DNA of 17,276 nucleotides from contig NZ_CAMLFY010000100.1 in the NCBI RefSeq assembly GCF_946479415.1, positions 1 through 17,276 of the forward strand. The letters run 5' to 3'. The notes under the pieces were generated by a model. It had not been told where the DNA came from, did not search any database, and saw only the letters and a list, made by a program, of their open reading frames with translations. The position numbers and the translations under genes were made by a program. Positions 611-17,276 of the stretch are shown here, in pieces (position 1 is the first letter of the stretch; every line of letters starts with the position of its first letter). Source of the stretch: an uncultured Shinella sp. GTDB lineage: Bacteria; Pseudomonadota; Alphaproteobacteria; Rhizobiales; Rhizobiaceae.

Positions 611-2332
611 TTACTTCTGCCAGCTCTTGACGAGTTCGTCATAGTTGACGGTGAGCGGCTTTTCCTTCTCGTTTTCGATCTTCAGCTGCGGAGCGAGGTT
701 GCCCTTTTCGACGGCATCCTTGTTCCAGTAGGCGAGATCATGCTCTTCGGCGAGCTTCGGACCCATGTCGCCCTGAACGCCGGCGCGCTCAAGGCGTTCC
801 AGAACCTTTTCCTGCTCGGCGCAGAGCGAGTCCATGGCTTCCTGCGCGGTCTTGGCGCCCGACGACGCATCGCCGATCGCCTGCCACCAAAGCTGGGCCA
901 GCTTCGGATAGTCCGGAATGTTCGTGCCGGTCGGCGACCACTGAACGCGGGCCGGCGAACGGTAGAATTCGACCAGACCGCCGAGCTTCGGCGCGCGGTC
1001 CGTGAAGGACTTGTGGTCCAGCGTGGACTGGCGGATGAAGGTCAGGCCGACATGGCTCTTCTTCACGTCGACGGTCTTGGAGGTCACGAACTGCGCGTAG
1101 AGCCAGGCGGCCTTGGCGCGGTCATCCGGGGTGGACTTCATCAGCGTCCAGGAACCCACGTCCTGATAGCCGAGCTTCATGCCGTCCTTCCAGTAGACGC
1201 CGTGCGGCGACGGGGCAAAGCGCCACTTCGGCGTGCCGTCCGCATTGACGACCGGCAGGCCTTCCTTGACGAAGCTCGCCGTGAAGGCGGTGTAGGTGAA
1301 CATCTGCTGGGCAACTTCGCCCTGCGACGGAACCGGACCGGATTCGGAGAAGGTCATGCCGGCGGCAGACGCCGGAGCATAGGCCTTCAGCCACTGCAGG
1401 TACTTCTCGATCGAGTAGACGGCTGCCGGGCCGTTGGTGTCGCCGCCGCGGGCAACGCACGAACCGACCGGCTGCGACTTTTCGTTGACCTTGATGCCCC
1501 ATTCGTCGACCGGCAGGCCGTTCGGGATGCCCTTGTCGCCGTTGCCGGCCATCGAGAGCCAGGCGTCGGTGAAGCGCCAGCCGAGCGACGGGTCCTTCTT
1601 GCCATAGTCCATATGGCCATAGACCTTCTTGCCGTCGATCTCGCGGCCGGTGAAGAACTCGGCAATGTCCTCGTAAGCCGACCAGTTGACGGGAACGCCG
1701 AGGTCGTAGCCGTACTTCGCCTTGAAGTCCGCCTTGTTCTTCTCGTCGTTGAACCAGTCGTAGCGGAACCAGTAGAGGTTCGCGAACTGCTGGTCGGGCA
1801 GCTGGTAGAGCTTGCCGTCAGGCGCGGTCGTGAAGGACGTGCCGATGAAGTCCTTGAGGTCGAGGTTCGGGTTGGTGACGTCCTTGCCTTCATTGGCCAT
1901 GAAGTCAGTCAGCGAGCGAGCCTGCTGGTAGCGCCAGTGCGTACCGATGAGGTCGGAGTCGTTGACATAGGCGTCGTAGATGTTTTCGCCCGACTGCATC
2001 TGCGTCTGCAGCTTTTCGATGACGTCGCCTTCGCCGATCAGGTCGTGCGTGATCTTGATGCCGGTGATGGCGGTGAAGGCCGGTGCGAGAACCTTCGATT
2101 CGTATTCATGCGTGGCGATCGTTTCCGAAACGACCTTGATGTCCATGCCAGCAAACGGCTTGGCGGCATCAACGAACCACTGCATTTCCGCTTCCTGGCC
2201 GGCGCGGTCGAGCGAGGACATATCGCCGACTTCCGAATCCAGGAACTTCTTTGCGGCATCCATGTCCGCGAATGCGGAACCGGTGAACGCCAGCAACAGG
2301 ACTGCCGTCGTCGTCAGAAGTTGCTTTCGCAT
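611..2332 (-). CDS. glpV: Glycerol ABC transporter, periplasmic substrate-binding protein GlpV
   Basis: This is the binding protein that captures glycerol in the periplasm and delivers it to the GlpPQ permease. It has 573 residues, the size of rhizobial GlpV, and begins with a clear Sec signal peptide: positive residues RK, a hydrophobic stretch (about 5-20), and a likely AFA cleavage site after residue 22. The mature protein is an extracellular solute-binding protein of the sugar/glycerol type, rich in aromatic residues (for example NLYWFRYDWF at 185-194) that suit polyol binding. Two cysteines, at 292 and 504, could form a disulfide. The start is the ATG at 2332, with GGGAGG a few bases upstream. 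It is the last gene of glpSTPQUV, 83 bases after glpU. Identification rests on the protein's character and the complete match of gene order with the R. leguminosarum glycerol locus. Confidence 0.93.
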   Translation of the reverse strand: MRKQLLTTTAVLLLAFTGSAFADMDAAKKFLDSEVGDMSSLDRAGQEAEMQWFVDAAKPFAGMDIKVVSETIATHEYESKVLAPAFTAITGIKITHDLIGEGDVIEKLQTQMQSGENIYDAYVNDSDLIGTHWRYQQARSLTDFMANEGKDVTNPNLDLKDFIGTSFTTAPDGKLYQLPDQQFANLYWFRYDWFNDEKNKADFKAKYGYDLGVPVNWSAYEDIAEFFTGREIDGKKVYGHMDYGKKDPSLGWRFTDAWLSMAGNGDKGIPNGLPVDEWGIKVNEKSQPVGSCVARGGDTNGPAAVYSIEKYLQWLKAYAPASAAGMTFSESGPVPSQGEVAQQMFTYTAFTASFVKEGLPVVNADGTPKWRFAPSPHGVYWKDGMKLGYQDVGSWTLMKSTPDDRAKAAWLYAQFVTSKTVDVKKSHVGLTFIRQSTLDHKSFTDRAPKLGGLVEFYRSPARVQWSPTGTNIPDYPKLAQLWWQAIGDASSGAKTAQEAMDSLCAEQEKVLERLERAGVQGDMGPKLAEEHDLAYWNKDAVEKGNLAPQLKIENEKEKPLTVNYDELVKSWQK

Positions 2333-2415: not shown

Positions 2416-2835
2416 TTAGACGAAGCGGAACACGCCGATGGCGTAGACCACGGACAAGGCAAGAGCCCACCACAGGTTGGGACCGACAAGGCCCAGCCAT
2501 GCGAGATGAATGAACGCCGAGCCGAGCAGCGACACGAAGAGCCGGTCGCCGCGGGTCGTCTCGAAGCGCAGGATGCCGACGCGCGGAGAACCGCCCGGAC
2601 GGGCATATTCCCAGACCGCCATCAGCGCGATCAGAAGAAAGATCGTCAGGAAGAACATGGCCGTCGGGAACGACCAGGCCATCCAGCCGCCGGGGATCAG
2701 CGAGGCGAACCAGTCGCGCGCGCCGTCCTTGACGGGGATCGACATCACAAGGAATCCGGTGATGAGGGCGTAGATGCCGAGCACGGCGGCAAGAGCCACG
2801 GGCCAGCGGTTGTTGTGGTTGGCGACGGCGGCCAT
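2416..2835 (-). CDS. glpU: DUF2160 small membrane protein of the glycerol transporter, GlpU
   Basis: A 139-residue integral membrane protein of the DUF2160 family, always met in this type of glycerol ABC operon but without a defined biochemical role. Four hydrophobic segments can be seen, near residues 12-34, 52-75, 97-115 and 119-137, with a charged loop (about 77-98, including GGSPRVGILRFETTRGDR) between the second and third. The start is the ATG at 2835, preceded by an AGGGGGAGGGG ribosome binding site. The gene starts 14 bases after the glpQ stop, so it is translated with the permease genes. It may be an accessory subunit of the permease or a stabiliser of its assembly; that is inference. 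A longer open frame upstream in the same phase runs antiphase to glpQ and is not used. Confidence 0.9.
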   Translation of the reverse strand: MAAVANHNNRWPVALAAVLGIYALITGFLVMSIPVKDGARDWFASLIPGGWMAWSFPTAMFFLTIFLLIALMAVWEYARPGGSPRVGILRFETTRGDRLFVSLLGSAFIHLAWLGLVGPNLWWALALSVVYAIGVFRFV

Positions 2836-2849
2836 CGGACCCCTCCCCC

Positions 2850-3692
<843 letters not shown>

Positions 3693-3703: not shown

Positions 3704-4570
3704 TCACGCCTGTTCGTCGCTGCTGGTCATGACCGTGTAGAAGATCCACGAGAACAGCAGGATGATCAGGAAGTAGATGATGGACATGGCCGCGGCCGGG
3801 CCAAGGTCGAACTGGCCGATCGCCATCTTGACGAGGTCGATCGAAAGGAACGTGGTCGAGTTGCCGGGACCGCCGCCGGTGACGACGAAGGGTTCGGTGT
3901 AAATCATGAAGCTGTCCATGAAGCGCAGCAGGAAGGCGATGAGCAGCACGCGCTTCATCTTCGGCAGCTGGATGTAGCGGAACACTGCCCAGCGCGAGGC
4001 GCCGTCGATCTTGGCGGCCTGGTAATAGGCCTCCGGGATCGAGACGAGGCCGGCATAGCACAGCAGCACGACAAGGCTCGTCCAGTGCCAGACGTCCATG
4101 ACGATGAGCGTCGCCCAGGCGTCGAAGACGTCGTTGACATAGTTGTAGTCGAAGCCGAGGCCATCCAGCACGCGGCCGAGCAGACCGATATCGACGCGGC
4201 CGAAGACCTGCCAGATCGTACCGACGACGTTCCACGGAATGAGCAGCGGCAGCGCCATCAAAACGAGGCAGACCGGCACGCCCAGCCCCTTCTTGGGCAT
4301 GTTGAGCGCGATCAGGATGCCGAGCGGAATCTCGATGGCGAGAATGATGCCGGAGAAGAGCAGATTACGGCCAAGCGCCTGCCAGAAGCGGTCGGATTCC
4401 AAGACGTCCGAGAACCAGCCCACGCCATTCCAGAAGAACGCGTTGTTGCCAAACGTGTCCTGCACCGAATAGTTCACCACCGTCATCAGCGGGATCACCG
4501 CCGAAAAGGCGACGAGCAGCAGGACGGGCAGGACCATGAACCAGGCCTTGTTGTTCCAGGTCTTGTTCAT
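3704..4570 (-). CDS. glpP: Glycerol ABC transporter permease GlpP
   Basis: First inner-membrane permease of the glycerol importer, in the MalF/UgpA-like family. It has 288 residues with about six membrane segments, the first at about 11-31. The EAA loop lies near 180-204 (EAYYQAAKIDGASRWAVFRYI), the contact helix for the nucleotide-binding subunits. The ATG at 4570 begins two bases after the glpT stop codon, and its AGGGAGG ribosome binding site lies inside the end of glpT, so the two genes are tightly coupled. VVTGGGPGNSTTFLS (about 228-242) is a typical MalF-class sequence. In Rhizobium nomenclature this is GlpP of GlpSTPQUV, not an antiterminator. Confidence 0.93.
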   Translation of the reverse strand: MNKTWNNKAWFMVLPVLLLVAFSAVIPLMTVVNYSVQDTFGNNAFFWNGVGWFSDVLESDRFWQALGRNLLFSGIILAIEIPLGILIALNMPKKGLGVPVCLVLMALPLLIPWNVVGTIWQVFGRVDIGLLGRVLDGLGFDYNYVNDVFDAWATLIVMDVWHWTSLVVLLCYAGLVSIPEAYYQAAKIDGASRWAVFRYIQLPKMKRVLLIAFLLRFMDSFMIYTEPFVVTGGGPGNSTTFLSIDLVKMAIGQFDLGPAAAMSIIYFLIILLFSWIFYTVMTSSDEQA

Positions 4571-4572
4571 CG

Positions 4573-5643
4573 TCAGCCCTCCCTGCCGACACGCCAGCTA
4601 TCGGCGTAGATGTTGATGGCAGCGGGATCGAAGGTAATGCGCGGCTCGGCCGGGATCTCGCCGTCCTCCGGCACGACGATCGCGATCGGCTTGCCGGCGA
4701 ATTCGGCACGCACGATCTTCTGGCGGCCGATATCCTCCACCTTGCTGATCGAAACCGGCATGCCCTCGCGCGACAGCGAGATGAATTCCGGGCGGATGCC
4801 GAGTTCCGTCTTCGCGCCGACGGCGATCTGCGGCCTGTAGTCAAGCGTAAGCGTCTGCTCACCAATCTTGATGCTGCTGCCGTCGATGGCGGCCGGCAGC
4901 ACGTTCATGCCCGGCGAGCCGATGAAGTAGCCGACGAAGGTGTGCTTCGGCTTTTCGAAAAGCTCGGCCGGCGTGCCGATCTGCACGATCTGGCCATCAT
5001 ACATGACGACGACCTTGTCGGCGAAGGTGAGCGCCTCGGTCTGGTCATGCGTGACATAAACCATGGTGAAGCCGAACTGGCGGTGCAGTTTCTTCAACTG
5101 CGAGCGCAGCACCCACTTCATATGCGGGTCGATGACCGTCAGCGGCTCGTCGAACAGGATGGCGTTGACGTCGTTGCGCACGAGACCTCGACCGAGCGAG
5201 ATCTTCTGCTTCTGGTCGGCGGTCAGGCCGCGCGCCGTCTTCTTCGCCCAGCCGGCAAGATCGATCATTTCGAGGATGTCGCGCACGCGGCGGTCGACTT
5301 CCGGCTCGGCGACGCCGCGGTTGCGCAGCGGGAAGGCCAGATTGTCGTAGACCGTCATCGTGTCGTAGATGACCGGGAACTGGAAGACCTGCGCGATGTT
5401 GCGCTGCTGCGTCGACAGGTACGTAACGTCCTTGCCGTCGAACAGGATGCGCCCCTCGGACGGCTGCAGCAGGCCCGAGATGATGTTGAGCAACGTGGTC
5501 TTGCCGCAGCCCGAGGGACCGAGCAGCGCATAAGCACCGCCGTCGTTCCACTCGTGATGGACTTCCTTCAGCGAATAATCGGCTTCCGACTTCGGCTTTT
5601 CGCCGTAGGCGTGGCGGATATGGTCGAGGGTGATGCGTGCCAT
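4573..5643 (-). CDS. glpT: Glycerol ABC transporter ATP-binding protein GlpT (degenerate signature motif)
   Basis: One of two distinct ATPases of the glycerol importer, 356 residues, MalK-like with a C-terminal TOBE-type region. The Walker A motif GPSGCGKT is at 42-49, the Q-loop Gln at 88, Walker B AILFDE at 161-166 and the switch histidine in VTHD at 199, all consensus. The ABC signature, usually LSGGQ, is LTADQ at 140-144, followed by KQK rather than RQR. The D-loop reads TVID. The start is the ATG at 5643, 10 bases after the glpS stop with GAGGAGG upstream; a longer frame adds 17 residues from the overlapping end of glpS and lacks support. The intact Walker A and switch His would pair with the good LSGGQ of GlpS. 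Do not confuse it with the E. coli antiporter GlpT. Confidence 0.93.
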   Translation of the reverse strand: MARITLDHIRHAYGEKPKSEADYSLKEVHHEWNDGGAYALLGPSGCGKTTLLNIISGLLQPSEGRILFDGKDVTYLSTQQRNIAQVFQFPVIYDTMTVYDNLAFPLRNRGVAEPEVDRRVRDILEMIDLAGWAKKTARGLTADQKQKISLGRGLVRNDVNAILFDEPLTVIDPHMKWVLRSQLKKLHRQFGFTMVYVTHDQTEALTFADKVVVMYDGQIVQIGTPAELFEKPKHTFVGYFIGSPGMNVLPAAIDGSSIKIGEQTLTLDYRPQIAVGAKTELGIRPEFISLSREGMPVSISKVEDIGRQKIVRAEFAGKPIAIVVPEDGEIPAEPRITFDPAAINIYADSWRVGREG

Positions 5644-5653
5644 GGTCTCCTCC

Positions 5654-6736
5654 TCAGGCCGCCGCGCCGGCCGGTTCAGCGATCGCCCTGCCATCCGTGC
5701 CGAAGGCCATCAGATGGCGCGTGTCGACGTGGACGGAGAGGACCGCATCCGGCTCGATGTCGTGGATGCCAGGCGAGAGCATGACCCAGCGGCTGCCCTC
5801 GAATTCGATATGGATGAAGCTTTCCGAACCCGCGATTTCCGAAATCGCCGTGCGGACCTGAAGGCTGGCTGAAGCAGCACTCTGGCTGGCCAGCGAGAGA
5901 TGATGCGGGTGAAACGCAATGGTGCAGGGACCGTCCGGCAATGCTGTAAGATGCGCCGGCACCGTCAGGACCGGCTTGCCGCCGATGTCGAAATGACCAC
6001 CGTTCTTGGCAACCTGCATCGTGTTGAGCGGCGGATCGGCAAAGGTGCGGGCGGTGACGAGATCGATCGGACGACGATAGACGTCGATCGTGCGGCCGAA
6101 CTGGGTGATGCGGCCTTGCGACAGCGCCGCCGTGTTGCCACCGAGAAGCAGCGCTTCGGAAGGTTCCGTCGTCGCATAGACGAAGATCGCGCCGGACGCG
6201 GCAAAAATCTTCGGCAGTTCGAGGCGCAGTTCCTCGCGCAGCTTGTAGTCGAGGTTGGCAAGCGGCTCATCGAGCAGCACGAGGCTGGCATTCTTAACGA
6301 TGGCACGGGCAAGCGCCGTGCGCTGCTGCTGACCACCCGACAGGTTGAGCGGCGTACGGTCGAGATAGGGCGTCAGCTTCAGCAGATCGGCCGCCTTGCG
6401 CACCTCGCGGTCGATCGTGGCCGTATCAGCCCCCTTGATGCGCATCGGCGAGGCGATGTTCTCGTAGACGGTCAGCGCCGGATAATTGATGAACTGCTGG
6501 TAGACCATGGCGACGCCGCGGTCCTGCACGCGCACGCCCGTCACGTCCTTGCCGTCGAACCAGACGGAGCCGGAGGTCGGCTTGTCGAGACCGGCCATCA
6601 GCCGCATCAGCGAGGTCTTGCCCGACAGCGTCGGGCCAAGCAGCACATTGAGCGAGCCGCGCTCGAGCACGAGATTGGTGGGGTGGATATGTGTTTCCGC
6701 CCCCGCCACCTTCGCGATGTTTCTAAGTTCCAGCAT
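5654..6736 (-). CDS. glpS: Glycerol ABC transporter ATP-binding protein GlpS (no switch histidine)
   Basis: The second ATPase of the glycerol importer, 360 residues. Walker A is GPTLSGKT (34-41), which fits GxxxxGKT but is unlike the usual GPSGCGKS. The Q-loop Gln is at 80, the signature LSGGQ at 132-136 with QQR, Walker B LVLLDE at 152-157 and the D-loop ANLD. Where most relatives have VTHDQ the protein has ATTEP (188-192), so the switch histidine is replaced by Thr190. The C-terminal third is the regulatory/TOBE-type region seen in MalK relatives. The start is the ATG at 6736 with GGAG at a normal distance, 42 bases after the glpD stop. These changes complement those in GlpT, so the pair should form one consensus and one degenerate composite ATP site. 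Confidence 0.93.
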   Translation of the reverse strand: MLELRNIAKVAGAETHIHPTNLVLERGSLNVLLGPTLSGKTSLMRLMAGLDKPTSGSVWFDGKDVTGVRVQDRGVAMVYQQFINYPALTVYENIASPMRIKGADTATIDREVRKAADLLKLTPYLDRTPLNLSGGQQQRTALARAIVKNASLVLLDEPLANLDYKLREELRLELPKIFAASGAIFVYATTEPSEALLLGGNTAALSQGRITQFGRTIDVYRRPIDLVTARTFADPPLNTMQVAKNGGHFDIGGKPVLTVPAHLTALPDGPCTIAFHPHHLSLASQSAASASLQVRTAISEIAGSESFIHIEFEGSRWVMLSPGIHDIEPDAVLSVHVDTRHLMAFGTDGRAIAEPAGAAA

Positions 6737-6778: not shown

Positions 6779-8296
6779 CTAGTGGGGCGCCGCCTGTGCA
6801 GCCGCCATGTAGTCCTCCAGTGCGGCCGCTTCCGCGGCCGTCAGATGCAAGCCTCGTTTGGTCCGCCGCCACAGCACGTCTTCGGCGTGCCGGGCCCATT
6901 CCTCTTTCATCAGCCAGCGCACTTCGCGCTCGTAGAGATCGCTGCCGAAATGCTGTCCGAGATCCGCCGCACTTTTCACGCCCTCCAGCAGGACTGACGC
7001 ACGCGTACCATAGAGCCGTACGAGCCGGCGGGCATGGGCAGCGGCAAGGAACGGGAAGCGCGCGGAGAGTGCCTTCACTTCCGCATCGAAGCCATCGACC
7101 TTGAAATCGCCGCCCGGCAGGCGAGACGTCGCCGTCCAGCGGTCACCCTTGGCGCCGATCGATTCCGAAATCTTCTCCAGCGCCGATTCGGCGAGACGCC
7201 GGTAGGTGGTGAGCTTGCCGCCGAAAATATTGAGCAGGGGCGCCTGGCCATCACCGCCCTCGACCTTCAGCACGTAGTCGCGTGTCGCTTCCTGCGCCTT
7301 GCTGGCGCCGTCGTCGAAGAGCGGGCGCACGCCGGAATAGGTCCAGACGATATCGTCGCGCGTCACCGGTTCGGCGAAATATTCGCTGGCCGAGGCGCAA
7401 AGATAGCCGATTTCCTCATCGCTGATGCGGACATCGCGGGGATCACCCTGATAATCGCGGTCGGTCGTGCCGATCAGTGTGAACTCTTCCTGGTAGGGAA
7501 TGGCGAACATGATGCGCCCGTCCGGATTCTGGAAGAAGTAGGCGCGCGGGTCGGAGAACTTCTTCTTCACGACGATATGGCTGCCCTGCACGAGGCGGAC
7601 ATTGTGCACATCGTTGCGGCCGAAGGCGGAGGACAGGACCTTATCGATCCAGGGACCGGCCGCATTGACCAGCATGCGGGCACGCACGGTCTCGCGCGTT
7701 CCGGTCTCGACATTCTCCGTCTCGACATTCCAGTGACCATTCTCGCGGCGTGCGGCGACGACCTTCGTGCCGGTGCGGATATCCGCGCCACGGTCGGCGG
7801 CATCGCGGGCGTTCAGCACGACGAGGCGCGCATCGTCCACCCAGCCATCGGAATATTCGAAAGCCTTGCGAAACAGCTTCTTCAGCGGCCCGCCGGCCGG
7901 ATCCTTGGCAAGGTCCACCGTGCTGGTCGCCGGCAAAAGCTTGCGGCCTCCGATATAGTCATAGAGAAACAGGCCGAGGCGGATGAGCCAGGCCGGACGC
8001 GGCCCACCCTTCTGGAAGGGCAGCACGAAACGCATCGGCCAGATGACATGCGGCGCCATCGCCCAGAGCACTTCGCGCTCCATCAGCGCCTCGCGCACGA
8101 GGCGGAATTCGTAATGTTCGAGGTAACGCAGGCCGCCGTGGATAAGCTTGGTGGAGGCCGAGGACGTGCCGGAGGCAAAGTCCTTCATCTCGGCCAATAC
8201 GACCGAGTAGCCGCGACCGGCAGCATCACGCGCGATGCCGCAGCCGTTGATGCCGCCACCGATGACGAAAATATCGCGGATGCCGTTGCCGTCCAA
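6779..8296 (-). CDS. glpD: Aerobic glycerol-3-phosphate dehydrogenase GlpD
   Basis: GlpD is an FAD-dependent peripheral membrane enzyme that oxidises sn-glycerol-3-phosphate to dihydroxyacetone phosphate and passes electrons to quinone. The N-terminal dinucleotide-binding motif is IGGGINGCG (12-20), followed by the family blocks SSASTKLIHGGLRYLE (about 45-60) and NAAGPW, and by GGKLTTYR near residue 380; the C-terminal alpha-helical domain is present. I place the start at the TTG at 8296: it gives 505 residues, the normal family size, its second to fifth residues match those of rhizobial homologues, and GGGAGGGG stands just upstream. The reading frame stays open for 100 more codons, but that extension crosses the promoter and the end of glpR. 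No glycerol kinase gene lies in this window, so the intermediate step must be encoded elsewhere. Confidence 0.95.
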   Translation of the reverse strand: MDGNGIRDIFVIGGGINGCGIARDAAGRGYSVVLAEMKDFASGTSSASTKLIHGGLRYLEHYEFRLVREALMEREVLWAMAPHVIWPMRFVLPFQKGGPRPAWLIRLGLFLYDYIGGRKLLPATSTVDLAKDPAGGPLKKLFRKAFEYSDGWVDDARLVVLNARDAADRGADIRTGTKVVAARRENGHWNVETENVETGTRETVRARMLVNAAGPWIDKVLSSAFGRNDVHNVRLVQGSHIVVKKKFSDPRAYFFQNPDGRIMFAIPYQEEFTLIGTTDRDYQGDPRDVRISDEEIGYLCASASEYFAEPVTRDDIVWTYSGVRPLFDDGASKAQEATRDYVLKVEGGDGQAPLLNIFGGKLTTYRRLAESALEKISESIGAKGDRWTATSRLPGGDFKVDGFDAEVKALSARFPFLAAAHARRLVRLYGTRASVLLEGVKSAADLGQHFGSDLYEREVRWLMKEEWARHAEDVLWRRTKRGLHLTAAEAAALEDYMAAAQAAPH

Positions 8297-8411: not shown

Positions 8412-9182
8412 TCAGGCCTGTGAAGCGGTCTCCACGAGACGCACGTCGTTCTCCTGGCAAATGGCCCGGATGCCCTCGAAAGGACAGCTGTCGGTGATGA
8501 AAGTGTGAACTTGCGAGAGGTGGCCGATGCGCACAGGAGCGGTCCTTTCGAATTTCGTCGAATCCGAAACCAGGATGACATGGCGGGCATTCGCAATGAT
8601 CGCCTGCGCCACCTTCACCTCGCGATAGTCGAAATCGAGCAGCGCACCATCCTCGTCGATGGCCGAAACGCCGATGACGGCGTAGTCCACCTTGAACTGG
8701 CGGATGAAATCGACGGCCGCCTCGCCGACGATGCCACCATCCGCGCCGCGCACCACGCCGCCGGCAATCACCACCTCGATCGAGGGGTAAACGCGCAAGC
8801 GATTGGCGACATTGATATTATTGGTAATGACCATCAATTCCTTGTGGTCGAGCAATGCCTCGCCGACGGCTTCCGTCGTCGTGCCGATATTGATGAAAAG
8901 CGAGGAATTATCGGGGATGACGGACGCTGCGGCGCGGCCGATCGCCTGCTTTTCCGGGGCGGCGATGGAACGGCGCGCCTCGTATTTGACATTCTCGTTG
9001 CCGCTCGGAAACAGCGCGCCGCCATGGATGCGCGTCAAAACCTTGTTGTCGCAGAGGTCGTTCAGGTCCTTGCGAATGGTCTGCGGCGTCACGGAAAAGC
9101 GTGATGCCAGGTCTTCGACGAGCACGCGGCCCTCGGTTTTGGCGAGATCCACGATCTCCGCCTGTCGACCCGTCAGAAACAT
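8412..9182 (-). CDS. glpR: DeoR-family glycerol-3-phosphate regulon repressor GlpR
   Basis: A DeoR/GlpR transcription factor of 256 residues. The N-terminal winged helix-turn-helix covers about residues 1-55 and includes LASRFSVTPQTIRKDLNDL and the DeoR-type RIHGGAL motif. The C-terminal DeoRC sensor domain has the INIGTTTEA phosphate-binding loop (about 95-103), which in this family recognises a phosphorylated sugar or polyol, here presumably glycerol-3-phosphate. I choose the ATG at 9182: GGGAGG lies five bases upstream, whereas the GTG six bases earlier (9188) sits inside that ribosome binding site. It heads the locus, 115 bases upstream of glpD in the same direction, and the palindrome in its promoter suggests it represses itself as well as glpD. 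Confidence 0.92.
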   Translation of the reverse strand: MFLTGRQAEIVDLAKTEGRVLVEDLASRFSVTPQTIRKDLNDLCDNKVLTRIHGGALFPSGNENVKYEARRSIAAPEKQAIGRAAASVIPDNSSLFINIGTTTEAVGEALLDHKELMVITNNINVANRLRVYPSIEVVIAGGVVRGADGGIVGEAAVDFIRQFKVDYAVIGVSAIDEDGALLDFDYREVKVAQAIIANARHVILVSDSTKFERTAPVRIGHLSQVHTFITDSCPFEGIRAICQENDVRLVETASQA

Positions 9183-9195
9183 AGGCACCTCCCAC

Positions 9196-10108: not shown

Positions 10109-11104
10109 TCAGGCGTTGACGTCGACGACCACGCGCCCCTTCACCTTGCCCTCCAGGATCTGGTTGGCCAAATCCGGCAGGTCGGACAACCGGTGTTCGA
10201 CCACCATGGCCTCCAGCTTGTCCATCGGCAGGTCGGCGGCGATGCGGTTCCAGGCATCGACGCGCTGATTGTAGGGGCGGTTGACCGAATCGATGCCGAG
10301 CAGGCTGACGCCCCGCAACAGGAACGGAATGACCGTGAAGGACGGCACGACGGCGCCCGCCGCAAGGCCGACGGAGGCGACGGCACCGTCATATTTCATC
10401 TGCTTAAGCACCCGTGCCAGCATATCGCCGCCAACGGCATCCACCGCACCCGCCCAGCGCTCGGATTCGAGCGGCTTGCTGTTCGGTTCGGCCAGTTCCG
10501 CCCGGTCGATGATCGTATCTGCACCCAATCCCTTGAGATAATCCGCCGTTTCCGGCCGCCCGGTGACGGCTGCGACCGAATAGCCGAGCCGCGCCAGAAG
10601 CGCCACGGCCACCGAGCCGACGCCGCCGGCTGCTCCCGTCACCAAAACCTCGCCCTTCAGCGGCGAAAGCCCGGCCTTTTCGAGCGCGGTGACGGACAAC
10701 ATGGAGGTGAGCCCTGCCGTGCCGATCGCCATGGCCTGCCGCGTCGACAGCTCCTCCGGCAACGGCACCAGCCAGTCGGCCTTCACCTTGGCGCGGGTCG
10801 CATAACCGCCCCACCAGACCTCCCCGACGCGCCAGCCGGTCAGCACCACCCGGTCGCCCGGCCGGTAGCGCGGGTCGTCGGAGGCCTCCACCGTGCCGGC
10901 GAAATCGACGCCCGGCACATGCGGGAAGGTGCGCACCAGCCCGCCCTTGCCGTTGATGCAGAGCCCGTCCTTGTAGTTCAGCGTCGAATATTCCACCGCG
11001 ACGGTGACATCGCCATCGGGAAGCCGCGTGTCGTCAAGCGTCTGGATCGATGCCGTCACCGCGCCATCGGCGGCCTTTTCTACCAACAGTGCCTGAAACG
11101 TCAT
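10109..11104 (-). CDS. acuI: AcuI/YhdH-family acrylyl-CoA reductase (MDR superfamily)
   Basis: A zinc-free medium-chain dehydrogenase/reductase of 331 residues, closest to the YhdH/AcuI group, which reduces acrylyl-CoA to propionyl-CoA with NADPH and detoxifies this reactive intermediate. Family landmarks are STLNYKDG (40-47), FPHVPGVDFAGTVE (60-73), VVLTGWRVGE (86-95), IGTAGLTSM (127-135) and the Rossmann motif VTGAAGGVGS (155-164), with TGRPE (181-185) suited to NADPH. The start is the ATG at 11104 with GAGGAGG upstream; the longer open frame to 11284 runs into the divergent regulator gene. It converges on the SDR gene with only 18 bases between them and no visible terminator. An annotation as quinone oxidoreductase is common for this family, and I am less sure of the physiological substrate than of the family. 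Confidence 0.88.
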   Translation of the reverse strand: MTFQALLVEKAADGAVTASIQTLDDTRLPDGDVTVAVEYSTLNYKDGLCINGKGGLVRTFPHVPGVDFAGTVEASDDPRYRPGDRVVLTGWRVGEVWWGGYATRAKVKADWLVPLPEELSTRQAMAIGTAGLTSMLSVTALEKAGLSPLKGEVLVTGAAGGVGSVAVALLARLGYSVAAVTGRPETADYLKGLGADTIIDRAELAEPNSKPLESERWAGAVDAVGGDMLARVLKQMKYDGAVASVGLAAGAVVPSFTVIPFLLRGVSLLGIDSVNRPYNQRVDAWNRIAADLPMDKLEAMVVEHRLSDLPDLANQILEGKVKGRVVVDVNA

Positions 11105-11207: not shown

Positions 11208-12101
11208 ATGATAGACAAGCTCGAATATTTCATCGCGCTCGCCCGCGAGCGGCATTTTGCCCGCGCGGCAGAAGAGCTCGGCATCTCGCAGCCGACACTG
11301 TCGGCGGCGATCCGCCAGCTGGAGGACCAGCTCGGCGTGATGCTCGTCGTGCGCGGCTCGCGCTTTCAGGGCCTGACGCCGGAAGGCCAACGCGTACTGG
11401 AATGGGCGCGCCGCATCGTCGGCGACACCCGCACCATGCGCGAGGAAATGCGCGCCGCGCGAAAAGGCCTGTCCGGCCATATCCGCCTCGCGGCCATTCC
11501 GACAACGCTCGCCATGGTGCCGCGCATCACCGCGCCCTTTCAGGAAAAGCACCCCGACGTCACCTTCTCGATCGTCTCCACGACTTCGATCAAGATCCTC
11601 GGCCTGCTTGAAAACCTCGAGATCGACGCCGGCCTGACCTATCTCGAAAACGAGCCGCTCGGCCGCGTCACCAGCGTGCCGCTGCTGCACGAGCACTATT
11701 GCCTGATCACCGCCAAGGGCAACGCCTTCTCCGATCGCAAAACCGTGACCTGGCAGGAGGCCGGCAGCGTTAGGCTTTGCCTATTGACTGCCGACATGCA
11801 GAACCGCCGCATCATCAACCGCCACTTCGCCGAAGCGGGTGTTACGGTCGAGCCATCGCTCGAAGCCAATTCGATGATTGTGCTGTTCTCCCATGTGCGA
11901 ACCGGACGCTGGTCGAGCATCATGCCGCGCAATGTCGCAAAATCGTTTGGATTTCCTGAGGAAATCAGTATAGTTTCTCTCGTCGATCCCGAACCGCATC
12001 ATACGGTCGGCCTCGTCGCCACCCATCGCGAGCCTTTTACGCCGCTCGTCTCGGCCCTACTGCACGAAGCGCGCGTGCTGGCGGAAAAGGGGATCGATTG
12101 A
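11208..12101 (+). CDS. fdsR: LysR-family regulator of the formate dehydrogenase operon (FdsR-like)
   Basis: A LysR-type transcriptional regulator of 297 residues. The N-terminal winged helix-turn-helix is at about 3-60, with the recognition region FARAAEELGISQPTLSAAIR (17-36), followed by a linker helix and a two-lobed periplasmic-binding-protein-like effector domain from about residue 90. The start is the ATG at 11208 with GGAGG 12 bases upstream, rather distant but the only sensible site. It lies directly upstream of, and in the same direction as, fdsGB-fdsA, and its stop codon overlaps a perfect LysR box at 12099-12117. LysR genes next to fds operons (for example FdsR in Cupriavidus) control formate dehydrogenase expression in response to formate. 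The specific name rests on that context, not on a diagnostic residue. Confidence 0.82.
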   Translation: MIDKLEYFIALARERHFARAAEELGISQPTLSAAIRQLEDQLGVMLVVRGSRFQGLTPEGQRVLEWARRIVGDTRTMREEMRAARKGLSGHIRLAAIPTTLAMVPRITAPFQEKHPDVTFSIVSTTSIKILGLLENLEIDAGLTYLENEPLGRVTSVPLLHEHYCLITAKGNAFSDRKTVTWQEAGSVRLCLLTADMQNRRIINRHFAEAGVTVEPSLEANSMIVLFSHVRTGRWSSIMPRNVAKSFGFPEEISIVSLVDPEPHHTVGLVATHREPFTPLVSALLHEARVLAEKGID

Positions 12102-12285: not shown

Positions 12286-12761
12286 ATGAATGTGCACGTT
12301 ACCGGCAGCGATGTCGGCACTCGAACCCTGGCAATCGTCAGTGAACTGAAGGGTCTCGAAGGGCCGCTTCTTCCCATCCTGCATGAAATCCAGGCCGAGT
12401 TCGGTTATGTGCCGCAGGAAAGCCTGCCGGTGATTGCGCGCGAACTGAACCTGTCACGCGCCGAAGTACACGGCGTCGTTACCTTCTATCACGATTTCCG
12501 CGACCACCCGACGGGCCGCCATGTGCTGAAGCTCTGTCGCGCCGAGGCCTGTCAGTCGATGGGCGGGGACGCGGTGGCCGAGCGCATCAAGGCGCTGCTC
12601 GGCATCGACTTCCACCAGACGACGCTGGATGGTGCCGTGACGCTCGAGCCCATCTACTGTCTCGGGCTCTGTTCCTGCGCACCCGCCGCTATGTTCGACG
12701 GCGAGGTGCATGGACGGGTCGATGATGATCTCGCGAAAGACCTCATTGCGGAGGCCCGCCG

Positions 12762-12765
<4 letters not shown>
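12286..12765 (+). CDS. fdsG: NAD-dependent formate dehydrogenase gamma subunit FdsG
   Basis: FdsG is the NuoE-like subunit of the soluble, NAD-dependent molybdenum formate dehydrogenase. Its 159 residues form a helical N-terminal part and a thioredoxin-like [2Fe-2S] domain. The cluster ligands are visible as C84-X4-C89 (CRAEAC) and C125-X3-C129 (YCLGLC), with a further Cys at 131. The conserved block VVTFYHDF is at 64-71. The start is the ATG at 12286, which has GGGAGG six bases upstream and gives the usual N-terminus; a GTG 11 codons earlier lacks a site. The stop overlaps the fdsB start (ATGA), so the two are translationally coupled. FdsG works with FdsB as the electron exit module that reduces NAD+. 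Confidence 0.94.
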
Positions 12766-14314
<1,549 letters not shown>

Positions 14315-14318
<4 letters not shown>

Positions 14319-14530
14319 GCGAGACGGAAAAGGTCAAAGGCCCGGCCTCCTATTTCCCCTCCATCGAGAAGAAATACGGCCAGCCGATCGAGCATTGGAA
14401 AGCCATCGTCCGCGCGCAGGATGGCAAGGCGCATATGCAGATCGTCGCCTTCCTCAAGGAAACGCACGGTCTTGGCCATGGCCATGCCAATGCCCTCGTC
14501 GCGGCGACGCTCGCCGAGACGAAATCGTAA
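14315..14530 (+). CDS. DUF4287 family small protein inside the fds operon
   Basis: A 71-residue soluble protein matching, as I recall the family, the DUF4287 domain over about residues 9-65: SYFPSIEKKYG at 12-22, EHWKAIV at 26-32 and the conserved HGLGHGHANALVA tail (51-63). It has no membrane segment, no signal peptide and no cysteine, so it is not an Fe-S carrier; the three histidines in HGLGHGH could bind metal or nucleotide, which is a guess. The ATG overlaps the fdsB stop in an ATGA, so it is made together with the diaphorase module. fdsA begins 54 bases later. Its function is unknown. Position suggests a helper in assembly or regulation of the dehydrogenase, but it could also be a passenger. 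Confidence 0.85.
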
Positions 14531-14545
14531 GAATTGAACCCAAGT

Positions 14546-14563
14546 CGCCGCTGAAACGCGGCG
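14546..14563 (+). promoter_or_regulatory. Intercistronic hairpin before fdsA
   Basis: CGCCGC (14546-14551) pairs with GCGGCG (14558-14563) around a TGAAAC loop, in the 54-base gap ahead of fdsA. There is no T-run, so it is not an obvious terminator. It ends 11 bases before the fdsA ribosome binding site and could affect mRNA processing or fdsA translation. Confidence 0.4.
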
Positions 14564-14584
14564 CGAGACGATCCGGAGGCTTCC

Positions 14585-17276
14585 ATGTCCCTCGTTCCTG
14601 AAATCGACTTCGGCACACCCGCCGCCCGCTCGGAAAAGATGGTGACGCTCACCATCGACGGGAACGAGATCACCGTTCCCGAGGGCACCTCCATCATGCG
14701 CGCCTCCATGGAGGCCGGCATCCAGGTGCCGAAACTCTGCGCCACCGACATGGTCGATGCCTTCGGCTCCTGCCGCCTCTGTCTCGTCGAGATCGAGGGC
14801 CGCAACGGCACGCCCGCCTCCTGCACCACACCCGTTGCGCCCGGCCTCGTCGTCCATACCCAGACGAGCCGGCTGAAGAGCATCCGCAAGGGCGTCATGG
14901 AACTCTACATTTCCGACCATCCGCTCGACTGTCTTACCTGCGCGGCGAACGGCGACTGCGAATTGCAGGACATGGCCGGCGCCGTTGGTCTGCGCGACGT
15001 GCGCTACGGTTATGAGGGCGACAATCACGTCAAGGCGCGCAGCAATGGCGAAACCAATGCCCGCTGGATGCCGAAGGACGAATCGAACCCCTATTTCACC
15101 TACGACCCATCAAAGTGCATCGTCTGTTCGCGCTGCGTGCGCGCCTGCGAGGAAGTGCAGGGCACCTTCGCGCTGACGATCGAAGGCCGTGGCTTCGACA
15201 GCCGCGTCTCGCCCGGCATGCACGAACATTTCCTCGAATCCGAATGCGTCTCCTGCGGCGCCTGCGTGCAGGCCTGCCCGACGGCGACGCTGACGGAAAA
15301 GTCGGTCATCGAGATCGGCCAGCCGGAGCATTCGGTCGTCACCACCTGCGCCTATTGCGGCGTCGGCTGCTCCTTCAAGGCGGAAATGCGCGGCGAAGAG
15401 CTGGTGCGCATGGTGCCGTGGAAGGATGGCCAGGCCAATCGCGGCCACTCCTGTGTGAAGGGTCGTTTCGCCTATGGCTATTCGACCCACCGTGACCGTA
15501 TCCTCAACCCGATGATCCGCGAAAAGATCACCGATCCCTGGCGCGAAGTGACCTGGGAAGAGGCCTATGCCCATACGGCCGCGGAATTCCGCCGCATCCA
15601 GTATCAATACGGCCGTGATTCCATCGGCGGCATCACCTCGTCGCGCTGCACCAACGAGGAGACCTATCTCGTCCAGAAACTGATCCGCGCCGGCTTCGGC
15701 AACAACAATGTCGATACCTGCGCCCGCGTCTGTCATTCGCCGACGGGCTACGGTCTCGGCCAGGCCTTCGGCACTTCGGCCGGCACGCAGAATTTCGATT
15801 CAGTCGAGTTCACCGATGTCGTCATCGTCATCGGTGCCAACCCGACGGACGGACACCCGGTCTTCGCCTCGCGCCTGAAGAAGCGTCTGCGCCAGGGCGC
15901 CAAGCTGATCGTCATCGATCCGCGCCGCATCGACCTCGTCTCCTCACCGCATATCAAGGCGTCGTACCACCTGCCGCTGCGCCCCGGCACAAACGTCGCG
16001 GTCGTCACCGCGCTCGCCCATGTCATCGTGACGGAAGGCCTCTACGACGAAAAATTCATCCGCGAGCGCTGCGACTGGTCGGAATTCGAGGACTGGGCGA
16101 GCTTCGTCGCCGAGCCGCGCCACAGCCCCGAGGAAACCGAAGCGCTGACCGGCGTGCCCGCCGAGACGCTGCGCGGTGCCGCCCGCCTCTTCGCCACCGG
16201 CGGCAACGGCTCGATCTATTACGGCCTCGGCGTCACCGAGCACAGTCAGGGCTCGACCACCGTCATGGCCATCGCTAACCTCGCCATGGCGACCGGCAAT
16301 ATCGGCCGCGAGGGCGTTGGTGTGAACCCGCTGCGCGGTCAGAATAACGTGCAAGGCTCGTGCGACATGGGCTCCTTCCCGCACGAATTGCCGGGCTATC
16401 GCCACATCTCGGACGATTCGACGCGCGAGATCTTCGAAAAGCTCTGGGGCGTGACGCTCAACGATGAGCCGGGCCTGCGCATCCCCAACATGCTGGACGC
16501 CGCCGTCGAGGGCACGTTCAAGGGCATCTACATCCAGGGCGAGGACATCCTCCAGTCCGACCCGGACACCAAGCATGTCTCGGCCGGCCTGGCCGCCATG
16601 GAATGCGTCGTGGTGCAGGACCTGTTCCTGAACGAGACCGCCAACTACGCCCATGTCTTCCTGCCGGGTTCGACCTTCCTGGAGAAGGACGGCACCTTCA
16701 CCAATGCCGAGCGTCGCATCAACCGCGTGCGCCGCGTCATGACGCCGAAGAACGGCTATGCCGATTGGGAAGTGACGCAGAACCTCGCCCATGCCATGGG
16801 CCTCGGCTGGAACTACAGCCACCCCTCCGAGATCATGGACGAAATCGCCGCGACGACGCCAAGCTTCGCGCTGGTTTCCTACGACTATCTCGAAAAGCAC
16901 GGCTCGGTGCAGTGGCCCTGTAACGAGAAGAACCCGCAGGGTTCGCCGATCATGCACATCAACGGCTTCGTGCGCGGCAAGGGCAAGTTCATCCGCACAG
17001 AATATGTCGCAACCGATGAGAAGACCGGTCCGCGCTTCCCGCTCTTGCTCACCACCGGCCGCATCCTCAGCCAGTACAATGTCGGCGCCCAGACGCGGCG
17101 CACCGACAATGTGCTCTGGCACGAGGAGGACCGGCTGGAAATGCACCCGCACGACGCGGAAAACCGCGGCATCCGTGATGGCGACTGGGTGCGGCTGGCG
17201 AGCCGCGCCGGCGAGACGACGCTGCGCGCACTCGTCACCGACCGCGTCTCGCCCGGTGTCGTCTACACGACCTTCC
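14585..17276 (+). CDS. fdsA: NAD-dependent formate dehydrogenase catalytic subunit FdsA (C-terminus beyond window)
   Basis: FdsA is the molybdenum bis-MGD subunit that oxidises formate to CO2. The window holds 897 residues of a protein usually around 950-980. In order: a [2Fe-2S] domain (C52, C63, C66, C80), the His-Cys cluster (H112, C116, C119, C125), two ferredoxin-type [4Fe-4S] clusters (C178/C181/C184/C188 and C221/C224/C227/C231), then the molybdopterin core with its own [4Fe-4S] cluster (C255, C258, C262, C290). The Mo ligand is C383 followed by H384 (RVCHSPTG); the codon is TGT, so cysteine, not selenocysteine. Arg584 in LRGQNNVQG corresponds to the second active-site residue. The ATG at 14585 has GGAGG five bases upstream. 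The frame is uninterrupted to the edge. fdsC and fdsD would be expected further right. Confidence 0.96.
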   Translation, partial: MSLVPEIDFGTPAARSEKMVTLTIDGNEITVPEGTSIMRASMEAGIQVPKLCATDMVDAFGSCRLCLVEIEGRNGTPASCTTPVAPGLVVHTQTSRLKSIRKGVMELYISDHPLDCLTCAANGDCELQDMAGAVGLRDVRYGYEGDNHVKARSNGETNARWMPKDESNPYFTYDPSKCIVCSRCVRACEEVQGTFALTIEGRGFDSRVSPGMHEHFLESECVSCGACVQACPTATLTEKSVIEIGQPEHSVVTTCAYCGVGCSFKAEMRGEELVRMVPWKDGQANRGHSCVKGRFAYGYSTHRDRILNPMIREKITDPWREVTWEEAYAHTAAEFRRIQYQYGRDSIGGITSSRCTNEETYLVQKLIRAGFGNNNVDTCARVCHSPTGYGLGQAFGTSAGTQNFDSVEFTDVVIVIGANPTDGHPVFASRLKKRLRQGAKLIVIDPRRIDLVSSPHIKASYHLPLRPGTNVAVVTALAHVIVTEGLYDEKFIRERCDWSEFEDWASFVAEPRHSPEETEALTGVPAETLRGAARLFATGGNGSIYYGLGVTEHSQGSTTVMAIANLAMATGNIGREGVGVNPLRGQNNVQGSCDMGSFPHELPGYRHISDDSTREIFEKLWGVTLNDEPGLRIPNMLDAAVEGTFKGIYIQGEDILQSDPDTKHVSAGLAAMECVVVQDLFLNETANYAHVFLPGSTFLEKDGTFTNAERRINRVRRVMTPKNGYADWEVTQNLAHAMGLGWNYSHPSEIMDEIAATTPSFALVSYDYLEKHGSVQWPCNEKNPQGSPIMHINGFVRGKGKFIRTEYVATDEKTGPRFPLLLTTGRILSQYNVGAQTRRTDNVLWHEEDRLEMHPHDAENRGIRDGDWVRLASRAGETTLRALVTDRVSPGVVYTTF

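Follow-up and report, generated by a model that had tools for sequence, protein, structure and literature searches.

A conserved pair of ATPases predicted to form one complete and one degenerate ATP site in the GlpSTPQUV glycerol importer of a Shinella genome

The stretch of DNA analyzed here, 17,276 nucleotides of an uncultured Shinella sp. (contig NZ_CAMLFY010000100.1 of RefSeq assembly GCF_946479415.1; hereafter the window), carries a minus-strand operon whose open reading frame (ORF), domain and family matches give the order glpR-D-S-T-P-Q-U-V. With this gene content, and with a GlpU that is a DUF2160 protein, the operon is assigned to the GlpSTPQUV type of glycerol ATP-binding cassette (ABC) importer. 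We propose that its two MalK-type ATPases, GlpS and GlpT, probably work as an obligate heterodimer in which ATP is hydrolyzed mainly at one of two composite sites. The importer family is already established, and it is the conserved, predicted one-site motor that is new.

An earlier note on this DNA, made from the letters alone, had described GlpS as carrying a sound LSGGQ signature at residues 132-136 but Thr190, within ATTEP, where the switch His is expected, and GlpT as combining a GPSGCGKT Walker A motif and the switch His199 with an LTADQ signature at residues 140-144. Translation reproduces the GlpS motifs exactly, and those of GlpT exactly when residues are counted from the ATG at 5643; an alternative in-frame start at 5694, which would lengthen GlpT, overlaps glpS and is judged unlikely. 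Two other features named there are oddities rather than lesions: the GlpS Walker A motif, GPTLSGKT, is indeed unusual but not defective, as it still obeys the GxxxxGK[ST] pattern, and the GlpT D-loop does read TVID but retains its Asp (the GlpS D-loop, ANLD, spans residues 160-163 of the translation). Beyond the changes listed in the note, GlpS has also lost the aromatic residue of the A-loop. Because GlpS is affected on its nucleotide side and GlpT on its signature side, the losses all fall within one composite site. By homology with known nucleotide-binding domain (NBD) dimers, site 1 would consist of the GlpT nucleotide side (Tyr13, Lys48, Asp165, Glu166 and His199) closed by GlpS LSGGQ, and would be complete and hydrolyze ATP. 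Site 2 would consist of the GlpS nucleotide side, with Lys40, Thr41, Asp156 and Glu157 kept, Thr190 at the switch position and no A-loop aromatic, closed by GlpT L-T-A-D-x; such a site would most likely bind nucleotide without efficient hydrolysis and serve a structural or regulatory role. At the sequence level this supports the assignment of one complete site (GlpT Walker motifs with GlpS LSGGQ) and one degenerate site (GlpS Walker motifs with GlpT LTADQ) made in the note. We infer from it the heterodimer, hydrolysis at one site and a cost of import of about one ATP per glycerol.

Homologous pairs were sampled in two ways. Set 1 came from a protein-pattern scan of genome contigs with six seed peptides, of which the best 80 of 594 loci were taken; glpT adjoins glpS in 79 of them, the exception (L063) lying on a contig of 3.9 kb whose end comes right behind glpS. 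One of the seeds, IFVYATTE, includes ATTE, so that the ATTEP count in this set is partly circular, and the family was therefore resampled via glpU. Set 2 came from a search for glpU (PF09928) in 398 Pseudomonadota genomes, with no ATPase motif used, which gave a full-length match in 84 genomes, 32 of them, as judged by eye, in another class than the nearest genome (G001). The GlpS and GlpT genes lie side by side in all 84 of these glpU neighborhoods, and in all 163 pairs of the two sets they share a strand, their stop codons being separated by 833-1157 bases. Since two loci are common to both sets by sequence (L035 = L111 and L039 = L127), pooled counts are given as distinct sequences, namely 162 GlpS and 161 GlpT. 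Rows below 300 bits were dropped from the set 1 motif counts, and rows below 180 bits from the A-loop and control alignment. It is also important to note that these genomes are related by descent and not independent, so that the counts measure conservation and not repeated origin. Searches with the two proteins themselves are given little weight, the best 120 of 7994 GlpS matches (ATTEP in 119, ATTEA in one) and the best 120 of 7999 GlpT matches (LTADQ in 119, LTADA in one) all being close relatives.

Across both sets the asymmetry is maintained. In set 1, LSGGQ, ATTEP and the Walker B Glu are each found in 80/80 GlpS proteins, and their GlpT partners have LTAD in 78/79 and LGAD in 1/79, with TVID and VTHDQ in 79/79. 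In set 2, where pairwise identity falls to 39% for GlpS and 47% for GlpT, all 84 GlpS proteins keep the Walker A Lys and Thr, the Walker B Asp and Glu, and LSGGQ, and their switch position is Thr in 79, Ser in five and His in none; all 84 GlpT proteins keep the A-loop Tyr, Lys, Asp, Glu, His and TVID, and the fourth signature position is Asp in 83 and Ala in one. Pooled as distinct sequences, GlpS has Thr (157) or Ser (5) at the switch position and LSGGQ with its fourth-position Gly in 162/162, and GlpT has the switch His in 161/161 and Asp (160) or Ala (1) at the fourth signature position. Every GlpT of both sets also carries the Walker Lys and Glu. The A-loop column of the 162 GlpS sequences holds Val in 146, Ala in nine, Met in two, and Ser, Thr, Arg, Ile and Phe in one each, the aromatic residue thus being absent from 161 of them; the Phe belongs to L131. 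With a nonaromatic GlpS A-loop included, the full pattern is found in 83/84 pairs of set 2 and 79/79 of set 1. The Arg of LSGGQxQR follows the same division, as GlpT has Lys, or Thr in 3/84 of set 2, at a position that is Arg in every GlpS.

The alignment check proposed in the earlier note, namely whether Thr190 and LTADQ are conserved together, thus comes out in favor of joint conservation, in 84/84 and 79/79 pairs (two loci common). It is the pattern that is kept and not the exact letters: position 190 is Ser in five sequences, and the last signature letter of GlpT varies (LTADQ, LTADA, LTADE and others), so that the conserved GlpT feature, as the alignments have it, is the loss of the signature glycines and not LTADQ as such. 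Within one subgroup even the deviations are paired, in that the five ATSEP GlpS proteins (L139, L142, L143, L147 and L160) go with five LSPDN GlpT proteins. A private mutation of the Shinella genome was considered and rejected, since 162 distinct GlpS and 161 distinct GlpT proteins share the pattern; none of the 163 sampled pairs has consensus motifs in both subunits, which the note had named as the sign of such private changes.

For comparison, 72 distinct CUT1 ATPases from outside two-ATPase loci served as the main control. The switch His, the fourth-position signature Gly and the aromatic A-loop residue are each present in 72/72, as is the Arg of LSGGQxQR, in a control that was mostly fetched by similarity to a consensus ATPase and is biased towards consensus. 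The control was drawn from best matches (59), glpU-set loci (8), other loci (4) and set 1 loci (2), one duplicate still being counted among these origins. A natural comparison within systems carrying a GlpU-like protein is offered by six partial DUF2160 matches (L165-L170), which adjoin a fully consensus CUT1-type ATPase and in whose loci no GlpS-like gene was seen. In L165 the DUF2160-like gene (7953-8195) encodes a short membrane protein matching PF09928 positions 28-87 and lies in a one-ATPase CUT1 operon, with L166-L170 similar, which suggests that the part played by GlpU-like proteins as accessory subunits extends beyond the glycerol importer.

Besides the bias of this control, several observations weigh against hydrolysis at a single site. 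As in other degenerate sites, the signature is altered in one subunit only and the switch His in its partner, but a third change that is frequent, though not universal, in such sites, alteration of the partner's Walker B Glu, is absent: GlpS retains the catalytic Glu in 80/80 and 84/84 sequences. The D-loop Asp is likewise retained in GlpT TVID. According to the portion of PMC7756269 consulted, Glu-to-Asp ranks second in frequency among the changes in human transporters that have a degenerate site, and with the GlpS Glu kept, some hydrolysis at site 2 is conceivable. A weak control of 20 hand-picked weaker matches, which includes ATPases of other importer classes and was compared in pairwise-alignment columns only, has an LSGG signature in 20/20 and the switch His in 19/20; the remaining member, L299, has ATQDR in place of the switch His and keeps LSGGQ. 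The A-loop residue is Phe or Tyr in 12 of the 16 alignable members and His or Thr in the other four, so that, taken alone, absence of the aromatic is no rarity in more distant ABC ATPases. Judged by these alignments, then, the His and signature losses are unusual even against the weak control, and the A-loop loss against the CUT1 control only.

Several of these points are what one would expect if both sites hydrolyzed ATP, with Glu157 sufficing without a switch His, LTADQ contacting the gamma-phosphate and the motifs representing a divergent dialect. Lys, Thr, Asp and Glu are present in every GlpS row of both sets, L299 is a single ATPase that lacks the His yet has LSGGQ, and other two-ATPase pairs (class B, below) combine signature drift (LSGGE, LSGGD, LAAGD) with a kept Glu and His. 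We nevertheless regard this explanation as unlikely, since the A-loop aromatic, the switch His and the signature Gly are all lost in one site and none of them in the other, and all three are present in 72/72 CUT1 controls. The invariance of the GlpS Walker residues bears equally on the opposite possibility, in which the degenerate site would be dead weight and GlpS would bind no nucleotide, merely donating LSGGQ. Without the A-loop aromatic, adenine should stack less firmly, given the role ascribed to this residue in the part of PMC7756269 consulted, and its loss fits that account; but the Walker A Lys and Thr and the Walker B Asp and Glu are invariant in both sets, at pairwise identities down to 39%, and we hold it to be quite improbable. 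The same invariance suggests that GlpS has probably kept nucleotide binding and that the poor site is still under selection for it.

That the two ATPases might not pair at all, but form separate homodimers on different permeases or at different times, has some precedent in that the top-listed solved relatives (MalK, AlgS, SugC and others) belong to single-ATPase systems. Here, however, the genes are neighbors on one strand in 163/164 loci (the L063 contig, as mentioned, ends after glpS), the operon holds a single permease pair, and neither GlpS2 nor GlpT2 would have a complete site. This last point is the best argument that the sequences offer for an obligate heterodimer, and separate homodimers are left with a very slight chance. 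A GlpS-GlpT heterodimer with hydrolysis mainly at site 1 is thus the reading we retain.

Both proteins have the fold such a motor would call for. PF00005 is present in GlpS and GlpT, and PF17912 (OB_MalK) in GlpT only (Pfam). Single-chain AlphaFold2 models have a predicted local distance difference test score (pLDDT) of 88.1 for GlpS and 88.2 for GlpT; the best PDB folds for the GlpS model are MalK-like ATPases and the GlpT fold is MalK-like too. Both models match MalK-type chains over their full length, with template modeling (TM) scores to ATP-bound MalK (1q12) of 0.88 for GlpS and 0.81 for GlpT. Since the best PDB sequence matches are MalK-like ATPases, at 208 bits for GlpS and 221 bits for GlpT, the PDB sequence search yielded no solved structure of the GlpS/GlpT family itself. 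The operon encodes two MalF/MalG-like permeases along with a solute-binding protein, which gives the system the makeup of a CUT1 importer, while the two equivalent consensus ATP sites of the CUT1/MalK type are missing as far as the sequences tell, and its NBDs are encoded by separate glpS and glpT genes and not fused in one polypeptide as in RbsA of the CUT2 class. By these marks GlpST is placed as a variant inside the CUT1/MalK-type importer class.

Two further kinds of two-ATPase CUT1 system were found in a by-eye scan of the match rows of 17 genomes, among the matches listed. Class B occurs in at least five genomes (L261-L265, at positions of about 5.0-7.4 kb), its first ATPase having LSGGD, LAAGD, LSSGD or LAGGD and its second LSGGE, with His and Glu kept in both; L261 is a looser member whose first ATPase is not best matched by the class B query. 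Dak1 and/or Dak2 (dihydroxyacetone kinase) lies beside the pair in four of the five loci (L262, L263, L264 and L265), and Dak genes were not seen in the 8.9 kb L261 locus. When 190 genomes were searched for the first ATPase (E up to 1e-120), 13 had it, each time with the second ATPase adjoining; among these 13, which overlap the earlier loci (G009 and G017 are L264 and L265), the first signature is LSGGD, LAGGD, LSSGD or LTSGD, the second LSGGE in 13/13, and His and Glu are kept. An enzyme I-like gene stands near class B in L263 and L265 (Pfam) and, by eye only, in L264.

In L266 (5038-7289), class C adjoins an FGGY kinase and a GlpD-like oxidoreductase of the DAO family; a search of 289 genomes (E up to 1e-75) found the class in three (L266, L272 and L273). 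In all three its first ATPase has LSNGQ, DDP (Glu to Asp), [RC]NVD and VTQDY (His to Gln), and its second [IV]SGGQ, FEGY, GQLE and VTHDQ; the first ATPase retains an aromatic A-loop residue. By its motifs, class C represents a second strongly asymmetric CUT1 pair, again with the degenerate nucleotide side in the product of the first gene. In a tree of these ATPases, GlpS and GlpT each form one clade (Shimodaira-Hasegawa-like approximate likelihood ratio test, SH-aLRT, 100 each), and a sister relation of the two is absent from the best tree yet not rejected (approximately unbiased, AU, test, p 0.178). GlpS groups with the His-less class C ATPase with support of 94, under the 95 mark, and their loss of the His may have a common origin.

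From these few loci one can hypothesize that heteromeric CUT1 motors are tied to three-carbon (C3) substrates. A bolder form of the idea, which we put forward tentatively and think somewhat doubtful, is that MalK-class C3 importers repeatedly use two ATPases, that they form a graded series with mild signature asymmetry in class B, Glu-to-Asp plus His-to-Gln in the first ATPase of class C and GlpST at its extreme, and that the asymmetry is adapted to one-ATP import of a low-value substrate; if so, GlpST would be the natural one-site counterpart of MalFGK2. ATP saving is a hypothesis for the asymmetry in GlpST; class B, which keeps Glu and His in both ATPases, counts against it as a general rule.

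The features of the operon and of the two ATPases are collected in Table 1. Shinella is the source of the nearest named proteins for both GlpS and GlpT among the matches listed. A glpK gene was not identified in the window, which stops about 610 bases past glpV. Elsewhere in the window, positions 12289-17275 of the plus strand hold formate dehydrogenase-type genes, with the gamma subunit above cut-off (NF004638), a NuoF-like subunit below cut-off and, from 14585, a large reading frame that exits the window end. Positions 10109-11104 of the minus strand encode an AcuI-type acrylyl-CoA reductase (NF051456, above cut-off), adjoined on the opposite strand by a LysR-like regulator (11208-12101).

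Table 1. Genes of the glp operon and ATPase motifs in the Shinella window
Feature	Position	Strand	Description
glpV	611..2332	-	solute-binding protein (SBP_bac_1)
glpU	2416..2850	-	small membrane protein, PF09928 (DUF2160); start approximate
glpQ	2850..3692	-	permease, MalG/UgpE/GlcU-like; ATG at 3692 adopted
glpP	3704..4570	-	permease, UgpA/GlcT-like
glpT	4573..5643	-	MalK-type ATPase, 356 aa, ATG at 5643; nucleotide side complete, signature spoiled (predicted)
glpS	5654..6736	-	MalK-type ATPase, 360 aa; LSGGQ donor, nucleotide side degenerate (predicted)
glpD	6779..8296	-	glycerol-3-phosphate dehydrogenase; listed ORF to 8596, start approximate
glpR	8412..9188	-	DeoR/GlpR-type regulator
GlpS A-loop position, Ala11	6704..6706	-	alignment column; aromatic in GlpT and 72/72 CUT1 controls
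GlpS Walker A GPTLSGKT, residues 34-41	6614..6637	-	Lys, Thr invariant in both sets
GlpS signature LSGGQ, residues 132-136	6329..6343	-	162/162 distinct GlpS
GlpS Walker B VLLDEP with Glu157 (LLDEP 154-158)	6263..6280	-	Asp, Glu invariant in both sets
GlpS H-loop ATTEP, residues 188-192	6161..6175	-	Thr190 replaces switch His (alignment)
GlpT A-loop HAYGE, Tyr13	5599..5613	-	Tyr in 161/161 distinct GlpT
GlpT Walker A GPSGCGKT, residues 42-49	5497..5520	-	translation
GlpT signature LTADQ, residues 140-144	5212..5226	-	alignment
GlpT Walker B ILFDEP with Glu166 (LFDEP 163-167)	5143..5160	-	
GlpT D-loop TVID, residues 169-172	5128..5139	-	79/79 set 1, 84/84 set 2
GlpT H-loop VTHDQ, residues 197-201, His199	5041..5055	-	His in 161/161 distinct GlpT

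Importers of the same type are described, partly at second hand, in an excerpt of PMC7912956 for Rhizobium leguminosarum bv. viciae VF39 and for Cupriavidus metallidurans (Rmet_2229-2234), where growth on glycerol persisted after deletion of the transporter; like the Shinella operon, they comprise two ATPases, two permeases, a small membrane protein, a binding protein, GlpR and GlpD. The accounts of the two ATPases in the excerpts of PMC7912956 and PMC11223650 considered here make no mention of an ATP-site asymmetry, and among the matches listed in a literature search we recognized no report of asymmetric GlpS/GlpT sites or of a degenerate CUT1/MalK-class importer. In exporters such asymmetry is well described, as in the part of PMC7756269 used here: TAP, TM287/288, CFTR and Pdr5 similarly combine a changed signature in one NBD with changed catalytic residues in the other, all within a single composite site, and H-loop changes are known among them. 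GlpST differs in being a MalK-class importer with a binding protein and separate subunits, in keeping the catalytic Glu in its degenerate site and in having lost the A-loop aromatic.

The remark in the earlier note that asymmetry is little discussed for carbohydrate importers can hold for CUT1 only, because degenerate sites have already been described, again from sequence, for the CUT2 importers RbsA and NupO (PMC11466899, in part). There a single chain holds both NBDs, and the Lys is missing from the second Walker A, whereas GlpS and GlpT are two CUT1/MalK-class chains with the Walker A Lys intact. Heteromeric NBD pairs (EcfA/EcfA', DppD/DppF) are also found in importers of other classes: nucleotide occupancy is asymmetric in ECF-FolT2 (PMC10368641, in extract), and a supplement legend describes an alignment of DppD/DppF with consensus and degenerate sites (PMC12136057, in extract). 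If the reading proposed here is true, site degeneracy extends beyond exporters and the fused ATPases of CUT2 importers.

With MalFGK2 and other CUT1 importers (MalK, SugC, AlgS, MsmX) GlpST shares the ATPase fold and the permease and binding-protein types. Unlike GlpST, these use one ATPase gene and two consensus sites, and the need for two hydrolytic sites, or the number of ATP per solute, in type I importers has been argued mostly from symmetric MalK and HisP and from engineered mixed mutants. GlpST would present a degeneracy naturally fixed in the MalFGK2 fold, in which the ATP-site question is directly testable by motif swaps between GlpS and GlpT.

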